Shown here piece after piece: positions 17,200 to 57,475 of a stretch of DNA of 64,000 nt (the first letter of the stretch is position 1; each line of letters starts with the position of its first letter). Source of the DNA: an uncultured Alphaproteobacteria bacterium (GTDB lineage: Bacteria; Pseudomonadota; Alphaproteobacteria; JAPOUT01; G958296285). The notes below the pieces were generated by a model that was given only the letters and a program-made list of their open reading frames with translations, was not told the origin of the DNA and searched no databases. The stretch is taken from positions 1,004,367 through 1,068,366 of the forward strand of contig OY282459.1 in NCBI GenBank assembly GCA_958296285.1. Direction: 5' to 3'. The translations under genes and the position numbers were made by a program.

Positions 17200-17230
17200 G
17201 AGACAAGTGATGCGTGGGCGTTTCAAAAGA

Positions 17231-17377
17231 AGGGGGGTTTGGGGGGCTAGCCCCCCAAGAAAAACCAAGCGGCGCGGAGCGCCGCTACAGGTCGGCGGGC
17301 GTGGCGAAACGAAGCGAGCGTTAGAGAGCGAGAAAGCCCGCCGATCCCCCTGCTCGCAGGAGCTCTTGTAAGCAGGG
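17231..17377. repeat. Mosaic palindromic repeat R1
   Basis: It combines the A module (a GGGGGG-TTT block followed by GGGGGGCTAGCCCCCC), a small GCGGCGC/GCGCCGC hairpin, and the B module: GGTCGGCGGGC at 17290 pairing with GCCCGCCGATCC near 17336 around an inner segment with GAAGCGAGCGTT. It ends in the F module around GCAGGAGCTCTTG. It lies between the divergent nuo operon and the coiled-coil gene and forms the left edge of the defence-gene island. Confidence 0.85.
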
Positions 17378-17412
17378 GCTGGGGTTTTCTCGTTTTCTCT
17401 TTTTCGGAGAGA

Positions 17413-17441
17413 TTGCGGGCGGAGAGAAGAAGCGCTACAAT
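17413..17441 (+). promoter_or_regulatory. Promoter of the coiled-coil gene, copy 1
   Basis: TTGCGG (17413-17418) and TACAAT (17436-17441) with a 17-base spacer, followed by a GAGGA site and ATG at 17466. The same promoter is conserved upstream of copy 2 at 29436-29464, although the adjacent spacer has changed slightly, which supports function. Confidence 0.65.
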
Positions 17442-17465
17442 CACGCAACCACGAGGAAATGAATC

Positions 17466-17789
17466 ATGAGCCTTGTTGACGTCTACGACGCCCTCAAAGA
17501 AGCGAAGGTTAGCGACCAGAAAGCCGCTGCCGCCGTGAAAGCCATAGAAGCTGTCCGCGAGGAAGCACGGTTGCGGCGCATAGAGGAACGAATCGGAGAA
17601 GTCCGAGTTGACATGGAAAAGGGCTTCGGAGAAGTCCGCGCTGAGATCGGAGAACTCCGCGCCGACATGGAAAAAGGCTTCGGAGAACTCCGCGCCGAAA
17701 TGAGAAGCGAAATACTTCTCTTGAAATGGATGTGCGGAGGGATCCTAGGTCTTATGGCGATGGCTTTCATCCGAATAATGTTTGGATAA
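17466..17789 (+). CDS. Small coiled-coil, membrane-anchored protein (DUF1640/CCDC90-like), copy 1
   Basis: A 107-residue protein. Residues 1-30 match the DUF1640-type head (VYDALKEAKVSDQKA), residues 35-80 are a charged heptad coiled coil built from repeats of GEVRAEIGELRADMEKGF, and residues 87-106 are a single membrane helix ending FIRIMFG. No catalytic residues are evident. Family members are thought to be membrane-anchored oligomers, but bacterial function is unknown. A paralogue lies at 29058-29411 with homologous DNA from the upstream hairpin to about 25 bases past the stop, as if copied as a cassette. The coil repeats differ in number between copies. Confidence 0.7.
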   Translation: MSLVDVYDALKEAKVSDQKAAAAVKAIEAVREEARLRRIEERIGEVRVDMEKGFGEVRAEIGELRADMEKGFGELRAEMRSEILLLKWMCGGILGLMAMAFIRIMFG

Positions 17790-17861
17790 AGTCTCACTGC
17801 CGCAAGCCCCGCGAGGTTTTTTCCGCTTTCTCTTTTTCGGAGAAATCGCGGCATGTCGCGC

Positions 17862-17867
17862 TATAAT
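17862..17867 (+). promoter_or_regulatory. Minus-10 element of the methyltransferase gene
   Basis: A perfect TATAAT 41 bases before the chosen start. The preceding CTCTTTTTCGGAGA block resembles the block upstream of the coiled-coil gene promoter, but no clear minus-35 with normal spacing is visible. Confidence 0.45.
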
Positions 17868-17907
17868 GCGATTCGCCTCCAAATCGCTCGCGGAAATACC
17901 TCCAACC

Positions 17908-19512
17908 ATGTCAAAAAATCCAGAACTTCTCACATTAGAAGAAGCGAGCCTCTTCGCCTCCAAACTGCTCGGCAGAGAAGTGACGCAGTCCAATATCGGC
18001 TATCTCGTCCAATATGGCAGAGTGCGAAAAAGCGGCGTCAATGGCGGCACAGCCGTCCATGCGAGAGAGCTGGAAAACTATTATCGGAATCAGATACGCC
18101 CCCAAGAAAAACGCTGGAAAGAAAAACTCGGAGACGATCTCAACTGGCATCTCTCTTTCACCGAATATCGGGAAGCCGAAAGGACGAAACATGTCCATCG
18201 GCTGCATCCCTATAAGGGCAAATTCATCCCGCAACTCGTGGAGTATTTCCTAGACAGCCGCACGGACTCTTTCAAGAAAGAGGCTTGCTTCAGAGAGGGC
18301 GATATCGTTCTAGATCCCTTCTGCGGCAGCGGGACGGCTTTGGCGCAAGCCAATGAGCTCGGCATGCACGCGGTCGGCGTGGATGTCTCGGCGTTCAACG
18401 CCCTGATCAGCAATGTGAAAATCGGGAAATATGATGTGAATCGGATTGAATCGGTCTTTCTCCGCCTGACCGAATCTTTACGAGAATTCCGAAAAGACCG
18501 CGAATATCTTCAGTTTGACGCGGAACTGACGGATCGCTTGAAAGCGTTTAATCAGAAATTTTTTCCGTCTCCCGATTATCGCCGCGCCGTCAATCAGGGG
18601 AAAATCCCGGAACGTCTTTATGCGGCGGAGAAGCTGAAAGGGTTTCTGCCCGTTTTTGACGCGCTTGTTCGGCGATATGGCGTTGAGGTCGCGCCGCGCG
18701 GCGGGCGCTCTTTCTTGGATCAATGGTATGCGCCGTCTGTCAGACGGGAGATGGATTTTCTGTTTAAGGAGATGAAAGAGATTCGCCATGCCGAAGTGAA
18801 GAAACTCGCGGCGGTTGTTTTAAGTCGGGCGATTCGCTCATGCCGCGCCACGACTCATGCCGATCTCGGAACGCTGAAAGAGCCTGTCGCGCGTCCCTAT
18901 TATTGCAAGAAGCATGGGAAGGTCTGCAAGCCGATTTTGTCTGTTTTTGGGTGGTGGCGGCGCTATTGCGAAGACACGTGCCAGCGTCTCCGCGAGTTTG
19001 ACGCTTTGAGGACAGAGACGCGTCAGCGCTGTTTGGTCGGCGACAGCCGGACGATAGACATCCCTGCCGCTCTGAAGAGAAAAGACAGAGCGCTTGCTGA
19101 TTTGGTTGCCTCTAGGAAGATCAAGGGCATTTTTTCCAGTCCGCCCTATGTTGGCTTGATAGATTATCACGAGCAGCATGCCTATTCTTACGATCTCTTT
19201 GGTTTTTCTAGGCGGGACGGTTTGGAGATAGGTCCGCTTTCTCGGGGGCAGGGGCTTGAGGCTCGGCTTTCTTATGCGCGTGAGATTGCTCGGGTTTTGG
19301 TGAATTGTCGGCGATTTTTGGTTGAGGATTTTGACATATTTTTGGTTGCCAATGACAAATATGGTTTATATCCGCGCATTGCTGATGATTCTGATATGCG
19401 GATTGTTCGTCAATATCGGCGTCCTGTTTTGAATCGGGTTGAGAAGGATCGCATGGTGGCTTATTCGGAGTCCATTTTTCATCTTAAGGCGAATGTTTGC
19501 GCTGTTGCATAG
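17908..19512 (+). CDS. DNA methyltransferase (SPPY type, N4-cytosine or N6-adenine)
   Basis: A 534-residue amino-methyltransferase. An N-terminal region (about 1-65) with LTLEEASLFASKLL looks like a small DNA-binding or helper domain; the SAM motif DPFCGSGTALAQA is near residue 132 and the catalytic SSPPYVGLIDYHEQHAYSYDLF near 410, so motif I precedes motif IV (beta-like order). The start at 17908 is used because an in-frame ATG at 17782 lies upstream of TATAAT. Neighbours are a HEPN-like protein and an Mrr endonuclease, suggesting a restriction-modification role. It contains no TCGA, unlike those neighbours, so it may have resided longer in this genome. The target is not predictable. Its stop codon falls inside repeat R2 and the last 400 bases are G/T-rich. 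Confidence 0.82.
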   Translation: MSKNPELLTLEEASLFASKLLGREVTQSNIGYLVQYGRVRKSGVNGGTAVHARELENYYRNQIRPQEKRWKEKLGDDLNWHLSFTEYREAERTKHVHRLHPYKGKFIPQLVEYFLDSRTDSFKKEACFREGDIVLDPFCGSGTALAQANELGMHAVGVDVSAFNALISNVKIGKYDVNRIESVFLRLTESLREFRKDREYLQFDAELTDRLKAFNQKFFPSPDYRRAVNQGKIPERLYAAEKLKGFLPVFDALVRRYGVEVAPRGGRSFLDQWYAPSVRREMDFLFKEMKEIRHAEVKKLAAVVLSRAIRSCRATTHADLGTLKEPVARPYYCKKHGKVCKPILSVFGWWRRYCEDTCQRLREFDALRTETRQRCLVGDSRTIDIPAALKRKDRALADLVASRKIKGIFSSPPYVGLIDYHEQHAYSYDLFGFSRRDGLEIGPLSRGQGLEARLSYAREIARVLVNCRRFLVEDFDIFLVANDKYGLYPRIADDSDMRIVRQYRRPVLNRVEKDRMVAYSESIFHLKANVCAVA

Positions 19513-19664
19513 AAGCTGAAGGTGAAGGGGGGTTTGGGGGGCTAGCCCCCCTTGAGAAGGGGGGGGTCGGGGGAACCCCCCGAAAGCGCGTGGGTGGGTG
19601 GGAAAAGAGCTTTTGCGCAGTGAGCGTAGCGAACAAGCAAAAGCGACCCACCCACGCGCCCCTG
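19506..19664. repeat. Mosaic palindromic repeat R2
   Basis: It begins with the D module (GCATAGAAGCTGAAGG), then the A module with GGGGGGCTAGCCCCCC, a GGGGG-AA-CCCCC hairpin, and the C module: GCGTGGGTGGGTGGG at 19588 pairing with CCCACCCACGCGCC near 19647. The D module supplies the TAG stop of the methyltransferase gene. It is cut at its right end by a 15-bp direct repeat. Confidence 0.85.
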
Positions 19665-19679
19665 CTAACCACATAACTA
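19665..19679. repeat. 15-bp direct repeat, left copy
   Basis: CTAACCACATAACTA, exactly repeated at 20365-20379, 700 bases away. The pair brackets the HEPN-like gene and the left copy interrupts the expected end of R2, suggesting a target duplication or attachment sites. Confidence 0.85.
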
Positions 19680-19705
19680 AGTCACGATAAGCATGGAAAG
19701 TAAGT

Positions 19706-20287
19706 TTAATCCATGTGAAAGCCCAAACCTTTGAGAATTACGCAACTAACCTTCTTGTCCAATGATTTTGTAGCTCCAGTCACCCCTTGTTGTGAGCCGA
19801 AAGGACTAAAGTCCGCAGCCTCACGTACAGCATCATGGTATAACTTTGTATATTCCATAATCTTAAGAAGAGCTTCAGTTACTTGGGCATCTGAAACTCT
19901 CATGCCGTGCATAAGCTTGTCTCTAACCTGTTGCGCCAACTTTATTTTCTCAGCCGCATTTTTTGGGAAATCCTTTGAGAAAACAGTTTCATAGGAATCT
20001 TGAAATTTCTCGCGTGTCATATGAGTCGAGTCCATGGCTTGCTTAGCCATATAGGCATCCACAGCATAAGTTTTTCCCTCCGCCTGCACCCCATAAGTCT
20101 TTCTAAGGCCTATATAGAGAGACGTAGTGTGCGCCCATTCCACTCTATAAAACATATAGGTAAGAGCTAAACGCAGATCTTCAATCTTCTCAATTATTTC
20201 CGGAAACTGCCAGAAGTGATCTCGAACCTCACTCGGCAATTTTTCATACCGTTCTCGAAGAAGATCTTGAGCACTTTTGCGCGGCAT
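19706..20287 (-). CDS. HEPN-like protein of unknown function
   Basis: A 193-residue, largely helical protein of no family I recognise with certainty. Near residue 120 the segment QQVRDKLMHG fits the R-x4-H motif of HEPN ribonucleases (compare the common RNKxAHG form). Such proteins are often RNA-cleaving toxins or defence effectors. It lies between a DNA methyltransferase and an Mrr endonuclease and is convergent with the former. TCGA occurs about three times, far above host density, and base composition is lower in GC, both pointing to recent transfer. It is bracketed by a 15-bp direct repeat. The HEPN call rests on one motif and the helical look only. Confidence 0.5.
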   Translation of the reverse strand: MPRKSAQDLLRERYEKLPSEVRDHFWQFPEIIEKIEDLRLALTYMFYRVEWAHTTSLYIGLRKTYGVQAEGKTYAVDAYMAKQAMDSTHMTREKFQDSYETVFSKDFPKNAAEKIKLAQQVRDKLMHGMRVSDAQVTEALLKIMEYTKLYHDAVREAADFSPFGSQQGVTGATKSLDKKVSCVILKGLGFHMD

Positions 20288-20364
20288 AAATCTCTAATCC
20301 CTCGCATTTCCCTCCGATTAGCTTGTCATTCATTCTTATCGCGTTTATGACAACACCGTCAAGC

Positions 20365-20379
20365 CTAACCACATAACTA
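20365..20379. repeat. 15-bp direct repeat, right copy
   Basis: Identical to 19665-19679. It lies in the 207-base divergent region between the HEPN-like gene and the Mrr gene, which otherwise holds the promoters of both and no gene. Confidence 0.85.
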
Positions 20380-20494
20380 TAAGAGCAGGAGCTCTAACAA
20401 CGCGAAGGCACTCTAGTTTGACCCTCTCCCAAATGTCATGTTAGCACTTAAGAGAGATTTCAACCAATGCTAGACATAAGGAGGAAAGAACATC

Positions 20495-21403
20495 ATGCCA
20501 ATCCCACCTCAAGACAATTTAGCCGCTGCCTTGCTTAGCCTAATTGGAGATGAGAAAGAGCATCGTATCCGTGATCTTTTTGACCCTTTAGCAAGGCATT
20601 TTGATCTCACAGAAGACGATTTGCGAGAAACCATTAAATCCGGGGAGTCAAGATTTAAGAAGTCTACCCAGTGGGCAGCCTTCGCCCTACGCCAAGCAAT
20701 GTTTGCAGAGGCAGCGGGGCGAGGCTCTGTCAAAATCACTGACATGGGCAAGAAAATTCTTCAGGAAAACCATAAGGGGCTTGATTTAAAAATCAGGCAG
20801 AATTTGATATACAGTGAAAATCGTGACAGCGCGGATAAATCCGAAGAGACTCTCTCACTAGAGAATAGGAAAGAAAATGCCTTGCCCGACGATAGAGTTG
20901 AAGAGGCGCTTGCAGAAATAAATGATGCCTTAAAACAGGACATCATATCTGCTGTGCGTTCTTTGGGGACTACTCCTCAAGAAAAAGGAGCAGCCTTTGA
21001 GAGGTTAGTCTTAAATCTTCTTGAAAAAATGGGTTATGGCTCTCCTCACCACCTTGGCCGCTCGCACGATGGCGGCGTGGATGGCGTTATGTATCGGGAC
21101 GCCTTTGGACTTGATCGCATCTATATGCAAGCCAAATGTTTTGATGAGACACGGGTCGGAAAAACACCGATAGAAAGTTTTATTGCTGCCCTTGATCGAA
21201 AGAATGAAAGCAAGGGTATTTTTATCACATCTTCCAATTTTGAGAATCCAGCAAGAAAAACAGCTGAGAACGCTAACAAGCGGATTATTCTAATAGATGG
21301 CGATAAGCTGGCTGAGCTGATGATAAAGCATGACATAGGCGTCAGAAAGAAAAGCTGCATCATTATCAAAGAGATTGATGAGCAGTGGTTTGAGGATATC
21401 TAA
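20495..21403 (+). CDS. mrr: Mrr-family type IV restriction endonuclease
   Basis: A 302-residue protein. Residues 1-105 are an Mrr N-terminal winged-helix domain (LLSLIGDEKEHRIRDLFDPL and a TDMGKKIL end), a charged linker follows, and residues 150-290 are the Mrr catalytic domain: FERLVLNLLEKMGYG (Glu), DGGVDGVMYRD (Asp) and MQAKCF (Gln-x-Lys), the D-E-QxK nuclease centre. Mrr enzymes cut methylated DNA, or act as the nuclease of a restriction system. It has a good AGGAGG site. With the upstream methyltransferase it could form a restriction-modification pair, or be an independent defence. Low GC and a TCGA near 21196 suggest transfer. Confidence 0.85.
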   Translation: MPIPPQDNLAAALLSLIGDEKEHRIRDLFDPLARHFDLTEDDLRETIKSGESRFKKSTQWAAFALRQAMFAEAAGRGSVKITDMGKKILQENHKGLDLKIRQNLIYSENRDSADKSEETLSLENRKENALPDDRVEEALAEINDALKQDIISAVRSLGTTPQEKGAAFERLVLNLLEKMGYGSPHHLGRSHDGGVDGVMYRDAFGLDRIYMQAKCFDETRVGKTPIESFIAALDRKNESKGIFITSSNFENPARKTAENANKRIILIDGDKLAELMIKHDIGVRKKSCIIIKEIDEQWFEDI

Positions 21404-21433
21404 AAATCTCCTGCCACTCAATGGCTCTCACAA

Positions 21434-21571
21434 TGCAGGGGGGTCGGCGGGCTTCTCGCGGGCTTGCGCTGTCGCGCTACGCCCGCTTCGTTGCGCCACG
21501 CCCGCCGACCTGTAGGCTGCCTCACGGCAGCCTTGTTTTTCGCGGGGGGCTAGCCCCCCACACCCCCCTTC
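21434..21571. repeat. Mosaic palindromic repeat R3
   Basis: The B module opens with GGGGGGTCGGCGGGC and closes with GCCCGCCGACC, followed by a GGCTGCC/GGCAGCC hairpin and the A module GGGGGGCTAGCCCCCC. It sits between two convergent genes, and DNA to its right becomes G-poor at once. Confidence 0.85.
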
Positions 21572-21583
21572 ACACAAAGAGCC

Positions 21584-22480
21584 TCACGCCTCCTCAATGC
21601 GGAAAATCAAACCATCAGGGCCGCGAATGTAAAACCATCCCCCCCCACTCAAACCAGACAAAATCTCAACCCCACGATGCTCCAAAATCGCGCGAGCCTC
21701 CTCTATGTCATTCTCTATCGTAAAACCCAAAATCACCCCAGAAAACCACACGCTCTCCGAAGCCCACAACTCTAAACAAACATCAGGAAACGACCCGCCG
21801 CCAGATACCACAAAACGCCGACCACCATCAGAGCCATAAGACCCCAATAAACCTCCAGACCGCATAACACCACTCCGCGAAACCATCCCATCCGCACGAA
21901 ACCCTAAACGATCCGAATAAAACTCACGCATCTCCGATATGTCCATCTCATCAGACGCCGAAAGCAAAACCGAGCGAATCCCCGTGATCCGAATCTGCTT
22001 CTTCTTGCGCATCGGACGCGGCAGAACCTCGCGCGGCGGCTCAAAAATCTGCATCAGAAATCCGTTCGGCTCGCGGAAGTAAGATCGCTTGCCAACACGC
22101 TTCTCCTGCACATCGTCCATGAAGGGAATGTCGCGCGCCTCATAAGCCTTGCGAGCCTCAGCCAGATCGGCGACCTGAAAGCCGAAAATGTGCCGCCGCC
22201 GCAATTCAGGCGAAAGAGTCGCCCGAGACGACGCCAAAACCAACTCCTGTCCGGACGGCAGAAGGAAACTGGAAAAGCCGCCGCCGCGATTCCAAAAATC
22301 CATGTCCAAATTAATGACGAAAAACCGCTCCGCATAGGGCTGAACCCCAACAGGAATCACAAAACGCGACGCCCCTTGGATGCGGGTCTGCGGACTGAGT
22401 TCGGGAAGCGCGCCGTCATCTTGGCGATCGGCGATGCCGAGCGCGATCAGAATGGCGGCGAGAAGCGCGAAGCGCAGCAT
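21584..22480 (-). CDS. Two-domain VOC (glyoxalase-fold) protein with signal peptide
   Basis: A 298-residue protein. Residues 1-17 form a hydrophobic N-terminal segment (LRFALLAAILIALGIA) suggesting export. Two VOC halves follow: one ending SYFREPNGFLMQIFEP near residue 150 and a second ending WFYIRGPDGLIFRIEE at the C-terminus. Substrate unknown. It is followed on the same strand, after three bases upstream, by cytochrome b561, so both may be co-expressed. The 3-prime part of the gene is A/C-rich on the plus strand, the 5-prime part balanced. Confidence 0.7.
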   Translation of the reverse strand: MLRFALLAAILIALGIADRQDDGALPELSPQTRIQGASRFVIPVGVQPYAERFFVINLDMDFWNRGGGFSSFLLPSGQELVLASSRATLSPELRRRHIFGFQVADLAEARKAYEARDIPFMDDVQEKRVGKRSYFREPNGFLMQIFEPPREVLPRPMRKKKQIRITGIRSVLLSASDEMDISEMREFYSDRLGFRADGMVSRSGVMRSGGLLGSYGSDGGRRFVVSGGGSFPDVCLELWASESVWFSGVILGFTIENDIEEARAILEHRGVEILSGLSGGGWFYIRGPDGLIFRIEEA

Positions 22481-22483
22481 GGT

Positions 22484-23035
22484 TTAGCGGCGAGGGATTT
22501 CGGCGCCGAGCATGCGTTTGAGCGTATAGTCTTTATCGGCGAAGTGATGCTTGAGCGCCGCGCCGGCGTGGAGGACGATGAGAGCAAGGAAGGCGAAAGC
22601 TCCGATTTGGTGGGTGTAGAGGGCTGTCCAGGCGAGCGGCGGATATTTCCCGACTGGCCCGATTTCCAGGAGTCCGAAGAGCGGCAGGGTTGAGCCGAAA
22701 CTGAGCGACATGATCATGCCGGAGATTGGCATCAGCAGCGAGAGTGTGAGCAGGCTGATATGGGTATATTTGGCGAGGCGGACTTCCCAATCTTTGTGGG
22801 GCGCGGCGGGTTTGAGGAGTCCGTTTTTCCCACGCCACGCGATTCGCGCGAGGATCAGGAAGAAGAGGAGGAGTCCTGAGGATTTATGGAGGAAGTAGAG
22901 GGTATCCTTGAGGGGGCTTTTTGGGAGTTCGTGCATATAGACTCCGACAGCGAGCATCGCGAGGATGCTGACGCCGATGATCCAATGGAGCGCGATAGTT
23001 AGGGGCGCGAGTTTGTGGTGGGTGTCTGTTTTCAT
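22484..23035 (-). CDS. Cytochrome b561 family membrane protein
   Basis: A 183-residue four-helix dihaem cytochrome b (YceJ/CybB type) of the inner membrane that could oxidise quinol or superoxide. Candidate haem histidines are in TIALHWIIG, LHKSSG, YTHQIGA and VLHAGAALKHHF. The start at 23035 is chosen over one 12 codons upstream in a Lys-rich stretch. Its 5-prime end is G/T-rich on the plus strand, just left of the helicase island. Confidence 0.88.
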   Translation of the reverse strand: MKTDTHHKLAPLTIALHWIIGVSILAMLAVGVYMHELPKSPLKDTLYFLHKSSGLLLFFLILARIAWRGKNGLLKPAAPHKDWEVRLAKYTHISLLTLSLLMPISGMIMSLSFGSTLPLFGLLEIGPVGKYPPLAWTALYTHQIGAFAFLALIVLHAGAALKHHFADKDYTLKRMLGAEIPRR

Positions 23036-23110
23036 GTTGGGGATTTTGTCGGATTTTTTTTGAGTTTTCAAGCTTTTGTGAGGGGGCTTTCTTAAAGAAC
23101 CTGCGAAAGG

Positions 23111-25735
23111 CTACGACTCGAGATCGTCCAAAGATTCGCGTGTTTCGCCCGTTTCCGGATTCCAATAAACCTTATACCATTCGTCTCCGACCTCTTTAAT
23201 ATGCTCTGCTGGCATACGTTGTTTTACTGGTGAATATGTAATCCGTTCTGGCAAATTTTTGTATAGATACTCCAATCGCACATCGCCTCCTTGGTCAATG
23301 AGCTCATAGTCAGTGATTTCAATATCTCTGAAAATACCCTTATATTCGTAAGCGACAACGCTTCCTTTCTTGTATACAAGAAGCCATCCTTTAGGCAGGC
23401 TAGCATCTTGAACAGAGATGCTAGAGCCATCCTCTTTTTGAAGTTGTTCAAACCATCTCTGCAAGTTGGAAACGATATCATTAGAAAGAAGGTCACTTTT
23501 CTCGAGTCTACTGAGAAGATCATCGAATCGCCGATAAGCAGGTTCTGTCAGTCGTAAACTCCCATGTGTAGAATCAAAAAGCACGACTGCATCGGTAATA
23601 AAATTACGCCGACCATTTTCCTGGATAAGCGCGATGTTTGTAGCTACAGCATAAACATCTTGGGGGGAGATGCTGTATTCCCTTAACATGAGCTCGTGGA
23701 AAGCGGACGCGACCTCACCTTTGACGCCTTCTTGTCTAAACCACTCCTCGGCGATCCGCATGACAACGCCAGTTGTACGAAAGTCTCGTGTTTTAGGAGT
23801 CATGCTCGGTTTTTCTACCCGCAAATCTCTATAGAATTTCCGCTCGCCGATCTCGCGGAAACCTTCCACTCTTTCATTGATTTGCAAATGGCATTCCGCA
23901 AGAAAACCATTTTTACCCATGAGACACTGCCCATTGACAAGGCCATCCCGAGAAAGACTCAGGTTAACGAAAGTGCGTATCATGGGTTTGGGGTACATGG
24001 GAGATTCCGTGCGGGCAACCCGAATCTCCCTTTCAAAGGAAGTGTTTCTCCATTCAAGAACACGCCATCCTTGCCCTTTATGCAAGTAAATCGCCCAAGG
24101 GAATGCTTCCCGTATCGCTTGTTGTAGACTGAGCTGAGCGACAGAAATACGACTGCCGCCGGGTGCACTGCGCCCGTGAACAACCTTAAAGCTTTCTTCG
24201 GGACTGTTTCGCAGGGGAAAGTTAAGGTGAGGTGAATCACCTCCTATTCTGTTGATTGAGTCGAACTCTCTGGGTCGTGCGGATGGACTGCCTGGATAGG
24301 AAAAATCAAAAACATCTTCAAAACCATCGGGCCACGACACGAATCGCGGCACCCGTTTTTTGTCCCTTCCCCTAAGCATGTCCAACTCATCTGATAGACA
24401 AAGCGCATGGGCAAATTGCATGAATCTGTTAAAAATATACAGATAGGACGGTTCCACAGACTCCTCATAGTAATCCCCCAGCGTTGTACCAAAACGGCTG
24501 AAAACATCAGGCTCAGCAAGGATTCCGAAACTCCCTGGTTGTTGTCTGCCAACGCGACCCAATCTTTGCCGAAACGACTTTCGAGAAATTGGAAGGTGGA
24601 CATTGAGTCCGACGTTCAAATGCCCAATATCAATGCCGAGTTCAAGTGCTGAAGTGGATATAACGCCTTGCAGACTCCCATTGCGCAGAGCATTTTCTAT
24701 TTCGGCGCGATCGTAGGGTTCGTAGCCGCTCCTGTAAGGCTTTACGCTGTCGCGGTCGACTTTCACGGAAAGGCGCTCCGCGCCCTGACGTGAGTCGATG
24801 AATGTTATGAAACTGCCGTCGTCGGACTCGTCAACCAGCTCACTCAAAAGCTGACTCAAATTTTGAGTTAGATTCAAAGGAATCGTCGTTTCTTCTATGT
24901 CGGCGTCGTTTTTTAAGCAGATATGGAAGATTGATCGGGGACAGGTTGGCGATCCATCTTCTTCTTCCCCAATCGTGATAAACTCTAGTCCGGTGAGAGC
25001 CTGAAGGTGCTTGTCGGGGGCACGGATTGTCGCGCTAGCAGCTATAACCTGCGGTAGCGAGCGTTTAGACTCAGATTTGGCGAGAGCGCAAGCAACGCAT
25101 AAACGGCGGAATAGATAAGCAAAGTTGCTCCCAAATATGCCTTCCAGAACGTGCGCCTCGTCAATCACGATAAGCGACACTCGCGCGAGAAAGTTCCGAT
25201 GTGCCGGATTTGAGACTTCACGGAGCAGCCAAGCTTGGCAAATATCGGGGGTCATCAGCGCAATGCGCGCGCTTTTCAGTTTGTCGGTTCGTTCTTGTGG
25301 TGGTTTAATGGAGCCATCAATCTTTTGGATTGCGCCGCTTCCCATGCCTGCCAATTTGGCTATCCTACGCCAAGATTTCAGCTGATCCCCCGCTAACGCT
25401 CTTTGCGGATAGAAAATGATGGCAACAGCTTCATCATCATTATCCATCATGCGGAAAGCGGCGGATTGGAAAATGAGCGATTTGCCAGATGCTGTTCCTG
25501 TCGCAATGACAATGTTCTTTCCTTGCGCCGCCGCTTCCATCGCTTTTGCCTGATGCAGCCACAGCTTTCCTTGGAGCTGGCTGTCGTTCATTAGCCAGCG
25601 CCCAACAGCGCCACCATGATAAGAATCAGGTATGGGGGCAGTGCGCTCTTCTCGGGGCGGGATATCCAACCTATCCACGCAGGAAAGCTCATCGGAATCT
25701 ATCAGACGATTAAAGACTTCTAGGATATCTGCCAT
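23111..25735 (-). CDS. SF2 DEAH-box helicase, MrfA/YprA-like
   Basis: An 874-residue helicase. Motif I is ATGTASGKSL near residue 75, motif II VIDEAHVLEG near 190, motif III ASATIRAP near 235, motifs IV-VI in the second RecA domain with STSALELGIDIGHLNVGLN and QRLGRVGRQQPG near 375-400. The C-terminal 400 residues carry no cysteine cluster that would clearly mark DUF1998. MrfA-type enzymes work in DNA repair; related helicases occur in phage-defence loci. About six TCGA sites, lower GC and unlike codon use mark it as foreign. It starts 43 bases past the 3-prime end of tRNA-Asp, a classic integration position, but no integrase is present. Start at 25735 follows GGGAGG; an ATG seven codons earlier is possible. 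Confidence 0.82.
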   Translation of the reverse strand: MADILEVFNRLIDSDELSCVDRLDIPPREERTAPIPDSYHGGAVGRWLMNDSQLQGKLWLHQAKAMEAAAQGKNIVIATGTASGKSLIFQSAAFRMMDNDDEAVAIIFYPQRALAGDQLKSWRRIAKLAGMGSGAIQKIDGSIKPPQERTDKLKSARIALMTPDICQAWLLREVSNPAHRNFLARVSLIVIDEAHVLEGIFGSNFAYLFRRLCVACALAKSESKRSLPQVIAASATIRAPDKHLQALTGLEFITIGEEEDGSPTCPRSIFHICLKNDADIEETTIPLNLTQNLSQLLSELVDESDDGSFITFIDSRQGAERLSVKVDRDSVKPYRSGYEPYDRAEIENALRNGSLQGVISTSALELGIDIGHLNVGLNVHLPISRKSFRQRLGRVGRQQPGSFGILAEPDVFSRFGTTLGDYYEESVEPSYLYIFNRFMQFAHALCLSDELDMLRGRDKKRVPRFVSWPDGFEDVFDFSYPGSPSARPREFDSINRIGGDSPHLNFPLRNSPEESFKVVHGRSAPGGSRISVAQLSLQQAIREAFPWAIYLHKGQGWRVLEWRNTSFEREIRVARTESPMYPKPMIRTFVNLSLSRDGLVNGQCLMGKNGFLAECHLQINERVEGFREIGERKFYRDLRVEKPSMTPKTRDFRTTGVVMRIAEEWFRQEGVKGEVASAFHELMLREYSISPQDVYAVATNIALIQENGRRNFITDAVVLFDSTHGSLRLTEPAYRRFDDLLSRLEKSDLLSNDIVSNLQRWFEQLQKEDGSSISVQDASLPKGWLLVYKKGSVVAYEYKGIFRDIEITDYELIDQGGDVRLEYLYKNLPERITYSPVKQRMPAEHIKEVGDEWYKVYWNPETGETRESLDDLES

Positions 25736-25777
25736 AGCAACTTTTCCTCCCTGCAACTATTTTACGACTCCATGAGG

Positions 25778-25855
25778 TGGCGGGAGTGACGGGACTCGAA
25801 CCCGCGACCTCCGGCGTGACAGGCCGGCGCTCTAAACCGACTGAGCTACACCCCC
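25778..25855 (-). tRNA. tRNA-Asp (GTC)
   Basis: Folds by eye into a complete cloverleaf: acceptor GGGGGTG with CACTCCC, D-arm GCTCAG...GAGC, anticodon stem CCGGC/GCCGG with loop CTGTCAC (anticodon GTC), T-arm with GGTTCGAGTCC, discriminator G and an encoded CCA. The T loop contains one of the unavoidable TCGA sites. Confidence 0.96.
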
Positions 25856-52845: not shown

Positions 52846-53580
52846 ATGCAATCCGTCAAAGATATGGTCGTGATGATCACCGGCGCCAGTTCCGGCTTCG
52901 GCGCGGAGACCGCGAAACTGCTGGGCGCGAAAGGCGCGAAACTCGTCTTGGGCGCGCGGCGCGAAGATCGCCTCAAGGCGCTCTGCGATGAGATCGGCGA
53001 GAACGCCGTCTATAGCGTCTGCGACATCACGAAGAAAGAAGACGCGCTCGCGCTCGCCGGCAGGGGGCTCGACTCCTTCGGCAAAATCAACGCGCTCGTC
53101 AATAATGCCGGAATCGCGCCGAATGCGGCTCTTTCCAAAGGCACGGTGGAAGATTGGGATCAGATGATTGACGTCAATATCAAAGGCGTTCTTTACGCGA
53201 TCCATGCCGTTCTCCATCACATGATGGAGCGCGGCTCCGGGACGATCGTCAATATATCTTCGGTGGCGGCGCTGCGCGTTCTTCCGAGCGCGGCTGTCTA
53301 TTCGGCGACCAAATCCGCCATCCGCGCCATTTCTGACGGTCTGCGGATGGAGACCGGCGGAAAGATCCGCGTCAGCTGCGTCTATCCCGGCGCTTTCGCG
53401 ACCGAGATTCTGGATACGATCACCGATCCGGATGTCGCGGCGTGGTTGAAAAAAACGGGCTTTAACAAAATCGCCGGCGATCCGAGACAAGTCGCCGAGG
53501 CGATCGTCAGCGTGTTGGAGCAGAATCCCGAACTTTCGCTGAGCGATGTCGTGATTCGTCCGACAGCGCAGGCTTTTTAA
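52846..53580 (+). CDS. Short-chain dehydrogenase/reductase, tandem copy 1
   Basis: A 244-residue NADP-dependent SDR of the YdfG-like group (hydroxy-acid or serine dehydrogenase). Cofactor motif TGASSGFGAETAKLLG near residue 14 with an adjacent ARRED that prefers NADP; NNAG near 85; catalytic Ser in VNISSVAAL, Tyr/Lys in YSATKSAI near 152. Nine bases follow nnrU. The next gene is a close copy. Confidence 0.9.
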   Translation: MQSVKDMVVMITGASSGFGAETAKLLGAKGAKLVLGARREDRLKALCDEIGENAVYSVCDITKKEDALALAGRGLDSFGKINALVNNAGIAPNAALSKGTVEDWDQMIDVNIKGVLYAIHAVLHHMMERGSGTIVNISSVAALRVLPSAAVYSATKSAIRAISDGLRMETGGKIRVSCVYPGAFATEILDTITDPDVAAWLKKTGFNKIAGDPRQVAEAIVSVLEQNPELSLSDVVIRPTAQAF

Positions 53581-53596
53581 CAAAAGGGGAAAATCT

Positions 53597-54331
53597 ATGC
53601 AATCGGTCAAAGATATGGTCGTGGTGATCACGGGCGCCAGTTCCGGCTTCGGCGCGGAGACGGCGAAACTGTTGGGCGAGAAAGGCGCGAAACTCGTCTT
53701 GGGCGCGCGGCGCGAGGATCGCCTCAAGGCGCTCTGCGATAGGATTGGCGAGAACGCCGTCTATAGCGTCTGCGACATCAGCAAAAAAGACGATGCTCTC
53801 GCGCTCGCCCAAAAAGGCTTGGACTCTTTCGGCAAAATAGACGCGCTCGTCAATAATGCCGGAATCATGCCGCTCTCCTTCCTCGCCAAAGGCATGGTGG
53901 AAGATTGGGATCGCATGATTGACGTCAATATCAAGGGCGTCCTTTACGCGATCCATGCCGTTCTCAACCACATGCTGGAGCGCGGCTCCGGGACGATCAT
54001 CAATATCTCCTCCATCGCCGGCTTGCGAACCAATCCCAGCACCGCCGTCTATTCGGGAACGAAATACGCCGTCCGCGCCATCTCCGACGGTCTGCGGATG
54101 GAAACGGGCGGAAAGATTCGCGTCAGCTGCATCTATCCCGGCGCTTTCACGACAGAACTCGCCGCGAGCATCAGGGACGAGTCCGTGATTGAAGTCTTTC
54201 GCGCGCGCGGCTTTGACAAAATCGCAGGAGACGCAAAACGGGTCGCCGAAGCGATCGTCAGCGTGTTGGAGCAGAATCCCGAACTTTCGCTGAGCGACAT
54301 CGTCATTCGCCCGACAGCCCAAGCGATGTGA
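53597..54331 (+). CDS. Short-chain dehydrogenase/reductase, tandem copy 2
   Basis: A 244-residue SDR highly similar along its entire length to the gene 16 bases upstream, with TGASSGFGAETAKLLG, NNAG, and YSGTKYAV in place of YSATKSAI at the active site. The C-termini match (LEQNPELSLSDIVIRPTAQAM). Differences cluster around residues 90-110 and 165-210, the substrate-binding loops, suggesting divergence of substrate after duplication. Confidence 0.9.
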   Translation: MQSVKDMVVVITGASSGFGAETAKLLGEKGAKLVLGARREDRLKALCDRIGENAVYSVCDISKKDDALALAQKGLDSFGKIDALVNNAGIMPLSFLAKGMVEDWDRMIDVNIKGVLYAIHAVLNHMLERGSGTIINISSIAGLRTNPSTAVYSGTKYAVRAISDGLRMETGGKIRVSCIYPGAFTTELAASIRDESVIEVFRARGFDKIAGDAKRVAEAIVSVLEQNPELSLSDIVIRPTAQAM

Positions 54332-55403: not shown

Positions 55404-56327
55404 CTACAATTTCAGAACGCGCTTGGCGTTCTGATGCAGGAATTTCGGCCAGACATCCTCGCGGAGACGAATCTCGCGCAAATCCCGAAAAATCCGCTCC
55501 AGCGTCAAGCCCACCGGGAAATAGCCCGCATAGAGTATCTTATCCGAACCTCGGCTGTTCGCATAGTCCATAATCGCTTTGGGGTAGCGCTTCGGCGCGA
55601 AGGCGCTCGTGGAGTAGTAGAGGTTCGGATATTTTAGCATCAATTTGACGGCGAGCGCCTCCCAAGGCTCGCCGCCATGGCGCATGACGAATCTGAGTTC
55701 GGGGAAGAACCAGCAAACCTCGTCAATCAGCTCCACCTTCTGCGGCGCGGCAGGCACGCGCGGGCCAGGCACGCCAACGCAGCAGAAAAAGGCGATGTCC
55801 AAATCCACGCACGCCGCGTAGATCGGATACCATTTTTTGTCGTTGATCGGCGCGGGCGGCGACAAGCCGGCGGGGAAGGCGCAGACCGCCTTAATGTCAT
55901 AATCCTTTTTCAGACCTCGTATTTTGCGAACCTCCTCCATGCCTTCATTCGGATTGGCGTTGTAGTCAAAGAAGAAGCGATCGGGATTGCGCCGATTGGC
56001 GACCTTCGCCATTTCATCGCCGTCCACAAAGGTGATCATGGCGCGGGCGACATTGTATTTGTCCATCTCGCGCAAGAGCGCGTCCAGATAATCCTCTGTG
56101 GAGGGTTTTTGGGGCAGATTTTGGAAAACGGGAAGATGCTTGTAGATATATTCCGCCGGAAAACTGAATTGCTCGCGGCTTTCTTTATCCATCAGCAGCG
56201 GTTTGAGAAAATCATAGGCTCCGCCGCCTGTCGTTTTGGAGGGCAGCCCCATAAAAAGATCAATGACCTCCATGCCTTCGGGAAGCCCGATGAGGCGCGG
56301 CGGTTTTTCGCGAACATGTTCCGACAT
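55404..56327 (-). CDS. Amidohydrolase-family (Amidohydrolase_2) metal-dependent hydrolase
   Basis: A 307-residue TIM-barrel protein of the group containing decarboxylases such as ACMSD. The opening metal motif is degenerate (VIDLFMGLPS in place of D-x-H), but FVMRHGGEPWEAL near residue 215 and KILYAGYFPVGLTLERIF near 270 match the family. Because the first HxH-type ligand pair is missing, metal binding and activity are uncertain. It lies upstream of the Rieske oxygenase gene on the same strand, 45 bases apart, so both may serve one catabolic route. Confidence 0.8.
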   Translation of the reverse strand: MSEHVREKPPRLIGLPEGMEVIDLFMGLPSKTTGGGAYDFLKPLLMDKESREQFSFPAEYIYKHLPVFQNLPQKPSTEDYLDALLREMDKYNVARAMITFVDGDEMAKVANRRNPDRFFFDYNANPNEGMEEVRKIRGLKKDYDIKAVCAFPAGLSPPAPINDKKWYPIYAACVDLDIAFFCCVGVPGPRVPAAPQKVELIDEVCWFFPELRFVMRHGGEPWEALAVKLMLKYPNLYYSTSAFAPKRYPKAIMDYANSRGSDKILYAGYFPVGLTLERIFRDLREIRLREDVWPKFLHQNAKRVLKL

Positions 56328-56336
56328 GAAAACTTA

Positions 56337-57221
56337 TTAGGGGGTCTCCTTCCCTAAATGAATCTTGTATTTTTCTCCCTGCTCAATCAAGACCTTAATG
56401 TATTTTTCGTGCCTGCGCATTTTGAACAAAACGCCCTGGTTGCCTGGTCGCCAACACCAATAATCTATCATGTTTAATCCTGTGATAAACATGATGTGTT
56501 GGAGCTGACCATGGTAATAGCGTGGAATTTCTCCAGAGAGAGCTAAATCGTAAGCCCTCTCACCACATTTGATTTCAACGATTGTCTTTCCATCATTGGA
56601 TATTCCATCCAAACTTGCCCTTGCCCATGAATACTTTCTATGTTGCAGGCACGCAGATTTTACTTGGATCCCCTTCTTACTGCAATACGCATCCCTCGCC
56701 GCCGCTTCCAACATTTTTCCTTGGCGCATGGCTTCACTTTCATAGTCTCCGCCTTTCCCCGCTTTTTCATCAAGTAGCGCATCTATAGATTTCCACGGGT
56801 TTTGTTTCATGAGGACGGGAGCATCGGATGCGCCAAAGCCTCCTAGCCTCCACCGCTTCCACTCGAGCGTGCCTTGCTCCAATCTGATTTCTCTGTATAG
56901 ACTTTCCTCGGCTTCCCCTCCTCTTCTTTTTCTTTCTATGATGCTACCCGAAACGGTCGCGGCGCCCATGGCGGTCTTAACTTGACCGCTCACGGAATAG
57001 CCGTTGGCTTTGATTTCCATCGTCGCGTCAATCTCGCGCCCCATGAGTGGGACTTTCATGCTGCCCGTGAAATTCTCGCCATCCACTTTGACGTCCGTCA
57101 GCGTGACTTCGCCCTGCGCGCCTTTCATGGTGGCAGATCCGTCATCCTTAATGGTGAGAGTGAATTCCTGAGTCCCTATCGGAGACTTCACCTCCAGCTC
57201 CCAAGCGCCGACAATGCTCAT
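56337..57221 (-). CDS. Fusion: small beta-rich domain plus YqaJ/lambda-exonuclease-like nuclease
   Basis: A 294-residue chimera. Residues 1-95 form a beta-strand-rich domain (GAWELEVKSPIGTQEFTLTI) of the kind usually found as a free-standing small protein. Residues 108-294 are a YqaJ-type recombinase nuclease: EQGTLEWKRWRLGGFGASDAP, NPWKS, RASLDGISNDGKTIVEIKCG (Asp and Glu-x-Lys) and YYHGQLQHIMFITG (Gln-x-Gln-His). YqaJ enzymes are phage 5-prime to 3-prime exonucleases for recombination, often with a single-strand annealing protein, absent here. GC drops and TCGA appears (56863) in the nuclease half only. It may be a captured phage gene fused to the 3-prime end of a resident gene. Confidence 0.8.
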   Translation of the reverse strand: MSIVGAWELEVKSPIGTQEFTLTIKDDGSATMKGAQGEVTLTDVKVDGENFTGSMKVPLMGREIDATMEIKANGYSVSGQVKTAMGAATVSGSIIERKRRGGEAEESLYREIRLEQGTLEWKRWRLGGFGASDAPVLMKQNPWKSIDALLDEKAGKGGDYESEAMRQGKMLEAAARDAYCSKKGIQVKSACLQHRKYSWARASLDGISNDGKTIVEIKCGERAYDLALSGEIPRYYHGQLQHIMFITGLNMIDYWCWRPGNQGVLFKMRRHEKYIKVLIEQGEKYKIHLGKETP

Positions 57222-57475
57222 ATTCGCCCCTTTTCTGTTGAAATTTGTCCTATTAGAGAGCGCTTTAGCGCGATGGCCAAGCGTTTATCTAGGCGCTCTT
57301 GTTTTCCTCTCCGTTTTTCGCCGATGGTAGAAAAATTGGCGAGAGGAGCAAGGGAAGCATCATGAAGATGGCGCGGAGGGCAAGCGCTTGTCTGCGCCGA
57401 GTAGTTTCTGATCGCGGTGGTGATTCCGACAGTGATGGAAGAGCGGGAGAAGGACGACATCCCCGTCCCAAAAAC

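Follow-up and report, generated by a model that had tools for sequence, protein, structure and literature searches.

Introduction

Nucleases of the YqaJ / lambda-exonuclease family degrade double-stranded DNA processively in the 5'-to-3' direction and assemble into a toroidal trimer. In SXT-type integrative and conjugative elements (ICEs) and related conjugative plasmids, an alkaline exonuclease is paired with an annealing protein (PMC3118119).

Here, we describe a gene from an uncultured alphaproteobacterium, located in a stretch of 64,000 nucleotides (the window), in which a nuclease of this kind is joined to a small beta-barrel. The encoded protein resembles the YqaJ / lambda-exonuclease family, with LHK-Exo (3SYY) and lambda exonuclease (1AVQ), in sequence, predicted fold and catalytic positions, but it differs by its foreign N-terminal barrel and, compared with the plasmid relatives examined, by the absence of a C-terminal region of about 100-130 amino acids. 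In contrast to the exonuclease and annealing-protein modules of phages and ICEs, its genome provides no RecT/ERF partner. By class, the chimera and the SXT-type exonuclease belong to the same broad lambda-type group; different from the SXT-type pair, the chimera is found off any recognized mobile element, is unpaired and shares 35-39% identity with its best plasmid matches. Its residues 1-93 are a member of a family of small stand-alone barrel proteins, in which the natural end has been replaced and conserved residues have changed.

The Chimeric Reading Frame and Its Junction

A single open frame of 294 codons, running from ATG to TAA without internal stops, occupies exactly the coordinates at which a sequence-only reading of the window had placed a fusion of a host single-domain protein to a phage-type nuclease. 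Its parts are as follows.

56337..57221, minus strand: whole chimeric ORF, 294 aa (open-frame reading)
56943..57221, minus strand: N-terminal beta-barrel domain, codons 1-93 (89% aa identity to a stand-alone copy; AlphaFold; family alignment)
56889..56942, minus strand: junction/linker, codons 94-111 (purine-rich, low model confidence, GC3 0.24)
56340..56888, minus strand: YqaJ / lambda-exonuclease-like core, codons 112-294 (profiles, alignment, model, foreign composition)
56880..56882, minus strand: in-frame TTG, codon 114, possible independent nuclease start, MEQGT... (sequence; LHK-Exo chain alignment)

Homology to the stand-alone barrel gene ends between codons 93 and 94, near 56942, a minor correction to the earlier placement; the join sits two codons ahead of that gene's stop. 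GC3 amounts to 0.71 in residues 1-94, 0.24 in the linker (95-111) and 0.50 in residues 112-294, compared with 0.60-0.74 in six neighboring genes. With the window genes as the only reference, the codon-use score drops across the join from a host-like 0.16 to -0.17, which is below all 14 window genes tested (0.03-0.28). The host-like base use of the first part and the foreign composition of the second, both suspected earlier, are borne out by these values. Around the foreign segment, a search for target-site duplications and terminal repeats returned only short, chance-like repeats, and neither a promoter (consensus scan) nor a non-coding RNA was detected at the chimera region.

An assembly or base-calling error could mimic such a gene, either by a chimeric junction or by an indel in the A/G-rich linker that unites two separate frames. 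The linker indeed carries A and G runs (A5, G4), and the genome possibly stems from a metagenome assembly. Yet the source genome is a single 1.73-Mb contig (93.5% complete), and within it the foreign piece of roughly 600 bp is bordered by host-like sequence at either end, unlike what a simple chimeric join would leave. In addition, the frame stays open over 294 codons, whereas stops abound in both other forward frames of the foreign segment. An artifact is therefore considered quite improbable.

The Nuclease Core

PF09588 (YqaJ) is the only Pfam match of the protein and covers residues 120-249 (6.7e-24, 85.3 bits against a cut-off of 22). NCBIfam TIGR03033 covers residues 114-260 (8.8e-33, 113.6 bits against a cut-off of 68.05), and PHROGs assigns a RecE-like exonuclease family. 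The earlier assignment to YqaJ thus holds, but the nuclease begins at about residue 112-114 and not at residue 108. Compared with solved structures, the chimera sequence matches lambda exonuclease, and a profile that includes its relatives hits LHK-Exo at 4e-50. Across 13 aligned sequences, the residues W121, R125, E172, D205, E216, K218 and Q239 are invariant, of which E172, D205, E216, K218 and Q239 are catalytic, in agreement with the previous statement that the catalytic motifs are intact. In the full-length model, most of the nuclease domain reaches pLDDT values above 90 and aligns with LHK-Exo at a TM score of 0.77-0.78 (normalized to the target, E about 1e-9). A lambda-exonuclease fold is predicted for residues 112-294; if produced, the protein would probably act as a 5'-to-3' double-strand DNA exonuclease, catalytically complete on paper.

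The nuclease could also be translated alone from the TTG at codon 114, in which case the upstream barrel frame would be open by chance and the fusion protein would be unimportant. This TTG coincides exactly with the first codon of the conserved LEQGT motif. In LHK-Exo, the chain begins with MEQRT at the same position and aligns from its residue 1, and one relative begins with MKLINLEQG. Because the codon coincides with the usual beginning of the nuclease fold, a separate nuclease product is possible. A purine-rich stretch, AGAAAGAAAAAGAAGAGGAGGGG, is present upstream, but at more than 25 nt from the TTG it is too distant for a usual ribosome-binding site, and TTG is a weak start codon. Moreover, translation from the ATG of the barrel frame would run on into the nuclease and yield the fused product anyway, which counts against exclusive initiation at codon 114. 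We therefore regard this explanation as unlikely.

The best relatives found for the nuclease are lambda-exonuclease-family genes in plasmid records (35-39% identity, E down to 9e-26), and most of the plasmid matches are to conjugative plasmids; relatives in phage records share about 31% identity. The designation as phage-type holds only in part: it suits the family, but the closest matches found point to plasmids. Four plasmid relatives that were examined have 307-333 amino acids and match in their first part, compared with 183 amino acids here, as would be expected for a captured core; their additional C-terminal region comprises about 100-130 residues. Since short YqaJ proteins of about 200 amino acids occur naturally (L010, L012), a C-terminal truncation is not certain; the length comparison is most simply explained by capture of a core fragment.

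The missing C-terminal extension is also compatible with a decaying mobile-element remnant that yields no active product. The isolation of the gene from recognized mobile-element genes, none of which was found among the neighbors scanned, fits this explanation, and so does the lack of a RecT (PF03837) or ERF (PF04404) annealing protein, the two families that were searched in the whole genome. A remnant is nevertheless improbable, because the whole frame is free of stops and frameshifts and the alignment contains every catalytic residue.

A Duplicated Barrel Gene

The genome encodes a stand-alone 95-amino acid paralogue of residues 1-93 (C1:90073-90357) with 89% amino acid identity, which confirms that the N-terminal part corresponds to a host single-domain protein. 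The stand-alone product ends with ...TVSGSRA-stop, and R-A-stop is replaced by the nuclease in the chimera. Judged by sequence resemblance, the stand-alone gene is located directly behind cytochrome bc1-operon-like genes and is followed by a gene resembling methylthioadenosine phosphorylase. The similarity between both loci exceeds the coding region.

56943..57297, minus strand: duplicated DNA segment (blastn 321/355 identical, no gaps, 90% nt)

This segment continues for about 77 bp ahead of the barrel start codon. At the paralogue locus it reaches from the final codons of a cytochrome c1-like gene, whose stop is included in the far edge (locus L002), across the barrel gene. A gap-free match of 355 bp that includes upstream DNA identifies the two barrel copies as dispersed duplicates. 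The proposed chimeric origin is supported by this paralogue, by the change in composition at the join and by the lack of a second fusion among 385 class and 398 phylum genomes.

Within codons 1-93, the two copies differ in ten residues, with dN 0.053, dS 0.117 and dN/dS 0.45, a ratio that does not by itself show a loss of constraint. The stand-alone copy carries the family residue at G44 (17 of 17 relatives), M15 (16), D75 (15), V59 (13) and K19 (10), and it is taken as the parent because these typical residues are kept there. The fused copy carries the family residue only at S54 and, weakly, at N50, and has the odd residues V44, I15, Y75 and L59 at invariant or well conserved sites. It thus looks like the more relaxed of the two copies, as far as so few sites can suggest. 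The loss of G44, M15 and D75 argues against a retained ligand-binding role.

Family and Fold of the Barrel

AlphaFold predicts an eight-stranded antiparallel beta structure for residues 1-94 (mean pLDDT 87), which is structurally complete, including the last strand. The invariant family residues G5, P14, G16, Q18, G28, G48, G74, G79, G86 and G92 are present in the fused barrel. Stand-alone N-terminal proteins, for which a search in relatives had been proposed, were indeed found, and 18 were aligned: all 18 stop 1-3 residues past the point where the fusion continues. In the family, the chain ends 1-3 residues after a final G-x; in the chimera, the frame continues for 200 codons. The window copy has no Pfam or NCBIfam entry above cut-off, and three members of the family match Pfam Calycin_like weakly (best 4e-4).

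Foldseek searches with the barrel model produced no match at E <= 0.001. The weak matches (E 0.006-0.07) include fatty-acid-binding proteins, lipocalins, a lipocalin-like Bacteroides protein and the CBASS receptor Cap15. By its predicted fold, a small-ligand role of the barrel is possible. In the most specific version of this idea, the barrel would control the exonuclease, for defense or DNA uptake, by binding a small molecule or a nucleotide signal. Cap15, a cyclic-dinucleotide-binding CBASS barrel (7n35), aligns at a TM score of 0.57-0.62 with a weak E of 0.02, but lipocalin/FABP folds are equally good. The complete barrel and the occurrence of related barrels on PLP enzymes, FGE-sulfatase-like proteins and 3-keto-disaccharide hydrolase proteins would agree with a ligand-gated nuclease. 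On the other hand, most genomes with such a barrel encode it as a separate protein, and the fused copy lacks several conserved residues. PADLOC assigned no family to the chimera, and neither a cyclase nor an effector was found among the neighboring genes scanned. A functional ligand-gated nuclease is hence highly improbable, and the earlier proposal of a ligand-targeted nuclease is not upheld, given the conserved residues lost from the fused barrel.

Related barrels were also observed on enzymes. Four loci of class relatives (L050, L051, L053 and L055, the last by resemblance only) encode SelA-like PLP enzymes with a related C-terminal barrel; a similar barrel precedes an FGE-sulfatase domain in L052 and a 3-keto-disaccharide hydrolase domain in L062. 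This type of barrel does therefore combine with enzymes. The chimera shares with these fusions the pairing of a related barrel with a catalytic domain, but the barrels are distant, the partners are metabolic enzymes with no nuclease found among them, and a common origin is unsupported.

Rarity of the Fusion

Overlapping samples were searched for the fusion: 59 relatives, and 4, 385 and 398 genomes of the order, class and phylum, respectively. Whole-protein searches of these samples revealed no second fusion, and barrels and YqaJ proteins were always encoded at separate places. With a barrel profile, relatives were detected in 18 of the 385 class genomes and 36 of the 398 phylum genomes (counts that include the own genome and weak matches at domain level), and no other barrel frame runs into a nuclease. 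A wide family, which would have refuted the earlier observation, was thus not seen in the class and phylum samples. Pattern scans, which see close relatives only, detected no fusion in 84,980 species and no relative among viral contigs; the scan of genome contigs retrieved one stand-alone barrel only. In the literature searched, no YqaJ nuclease fused to a barrel of this type was found. The chimera is most likely singular and lineage-specific, as suggested by these comparisons.

Two groups of candidates were rejected. YqaJ loci that match from query residue 82-84 reflect read-through of stops upstream of the nuclease and contain no barrel, and the long open frames at barrel matches in G730, G479 and G702 are upstream frame extensions only.

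The amidohydrolase gene next to the chimera was used to look for an empty site in relatives. No strong match was obtained in the order, and the sole match is partial and belongs to another genome of the class.

Proposed Origin of the Chimera

Alongside the observed homology of both halves, the junction, the intact motifs and the rarity in the samples, we consider it reasonably probable that the gene is a young, lineage-specific chimera of a duplicated barrel gene and a captured nuclease, with the barrel as a passenger that retains no sensing role. Homology shows that the barrel gene and its leader are present twice: one copy follows the cytochrome bc1 genes, and the other precedes an amidohydrolase-Rieske oxygenase pair; the direction of copying and the order of duplication and capture are our inference. 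A roughly 600-bp piece of a lambda-exonuclease-family gene, with a plasmid or phage as its probable source, would have been joined in frame two codons before the normal stop of the barrel gene, where the sequence junction is seen. The start codon, leader and N-terminus of the nuclease would now be supplied by the barrel copy, which most likely persists as a passenger under relaxed constraint and not as a sensor.

We lean towards the view that no joint function of the two halves has been selected. The foreign frame of about 200 codons is still open with intact motifs, which could reflect selection for the nuclease. That the chimera is expressed and selected as a unit, with a calycin-like barrel that regulates or tethers a lambda-type exonuclease, again born by duplication and mobile-element gene capture, appears very unlikely; if true, it would represent a ligand-controlled member of the lambda-type nuclease family. 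If the junction is confirmed, the passenger-barrel chimera provides a clear case of a new gene formed from a duplicated host gene and a captured mobile-element nuclease, and the steps of its formation can be followed because the intact parent gene is present in the same genome.

Genomic Setting

The chimera is followed by a metabolic gene, which starts 9 bases past its stop codon.

55404..56327, minus strand: amidohydrolase gene (PF04909)

The amidohydrolase is probably co-transcribed with the chimera, and a Rieske oxygenase gene comes next. The suggestion that the chimera is a defense or DNA-uptake factor gains no support from these metabolic neighbors, the missing PADLOC match and the lack of RecT/ERF in the genome. 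As nothing found supports such a use, the chimera matters little as a defense or uptake claim.

At a distance, window positions 17206-25855 form a lower-GC stretch beside tRNA-Asp (25778-25855) that looks like a defense island. It holds a type II-like DNA methyltransferase (17782-19512), an Mrr-type restriction endonuclease (20495-21403) and a large DEAD-box helicase (23111-25756) that is weakly similar to BREX/DISARM-type helicases.

A second duplication is located near the chimera: at window positions 52846-54331, two short-chain-dehydrogenase-like genes are arranged in tandem, and their products share 80% protein identity.
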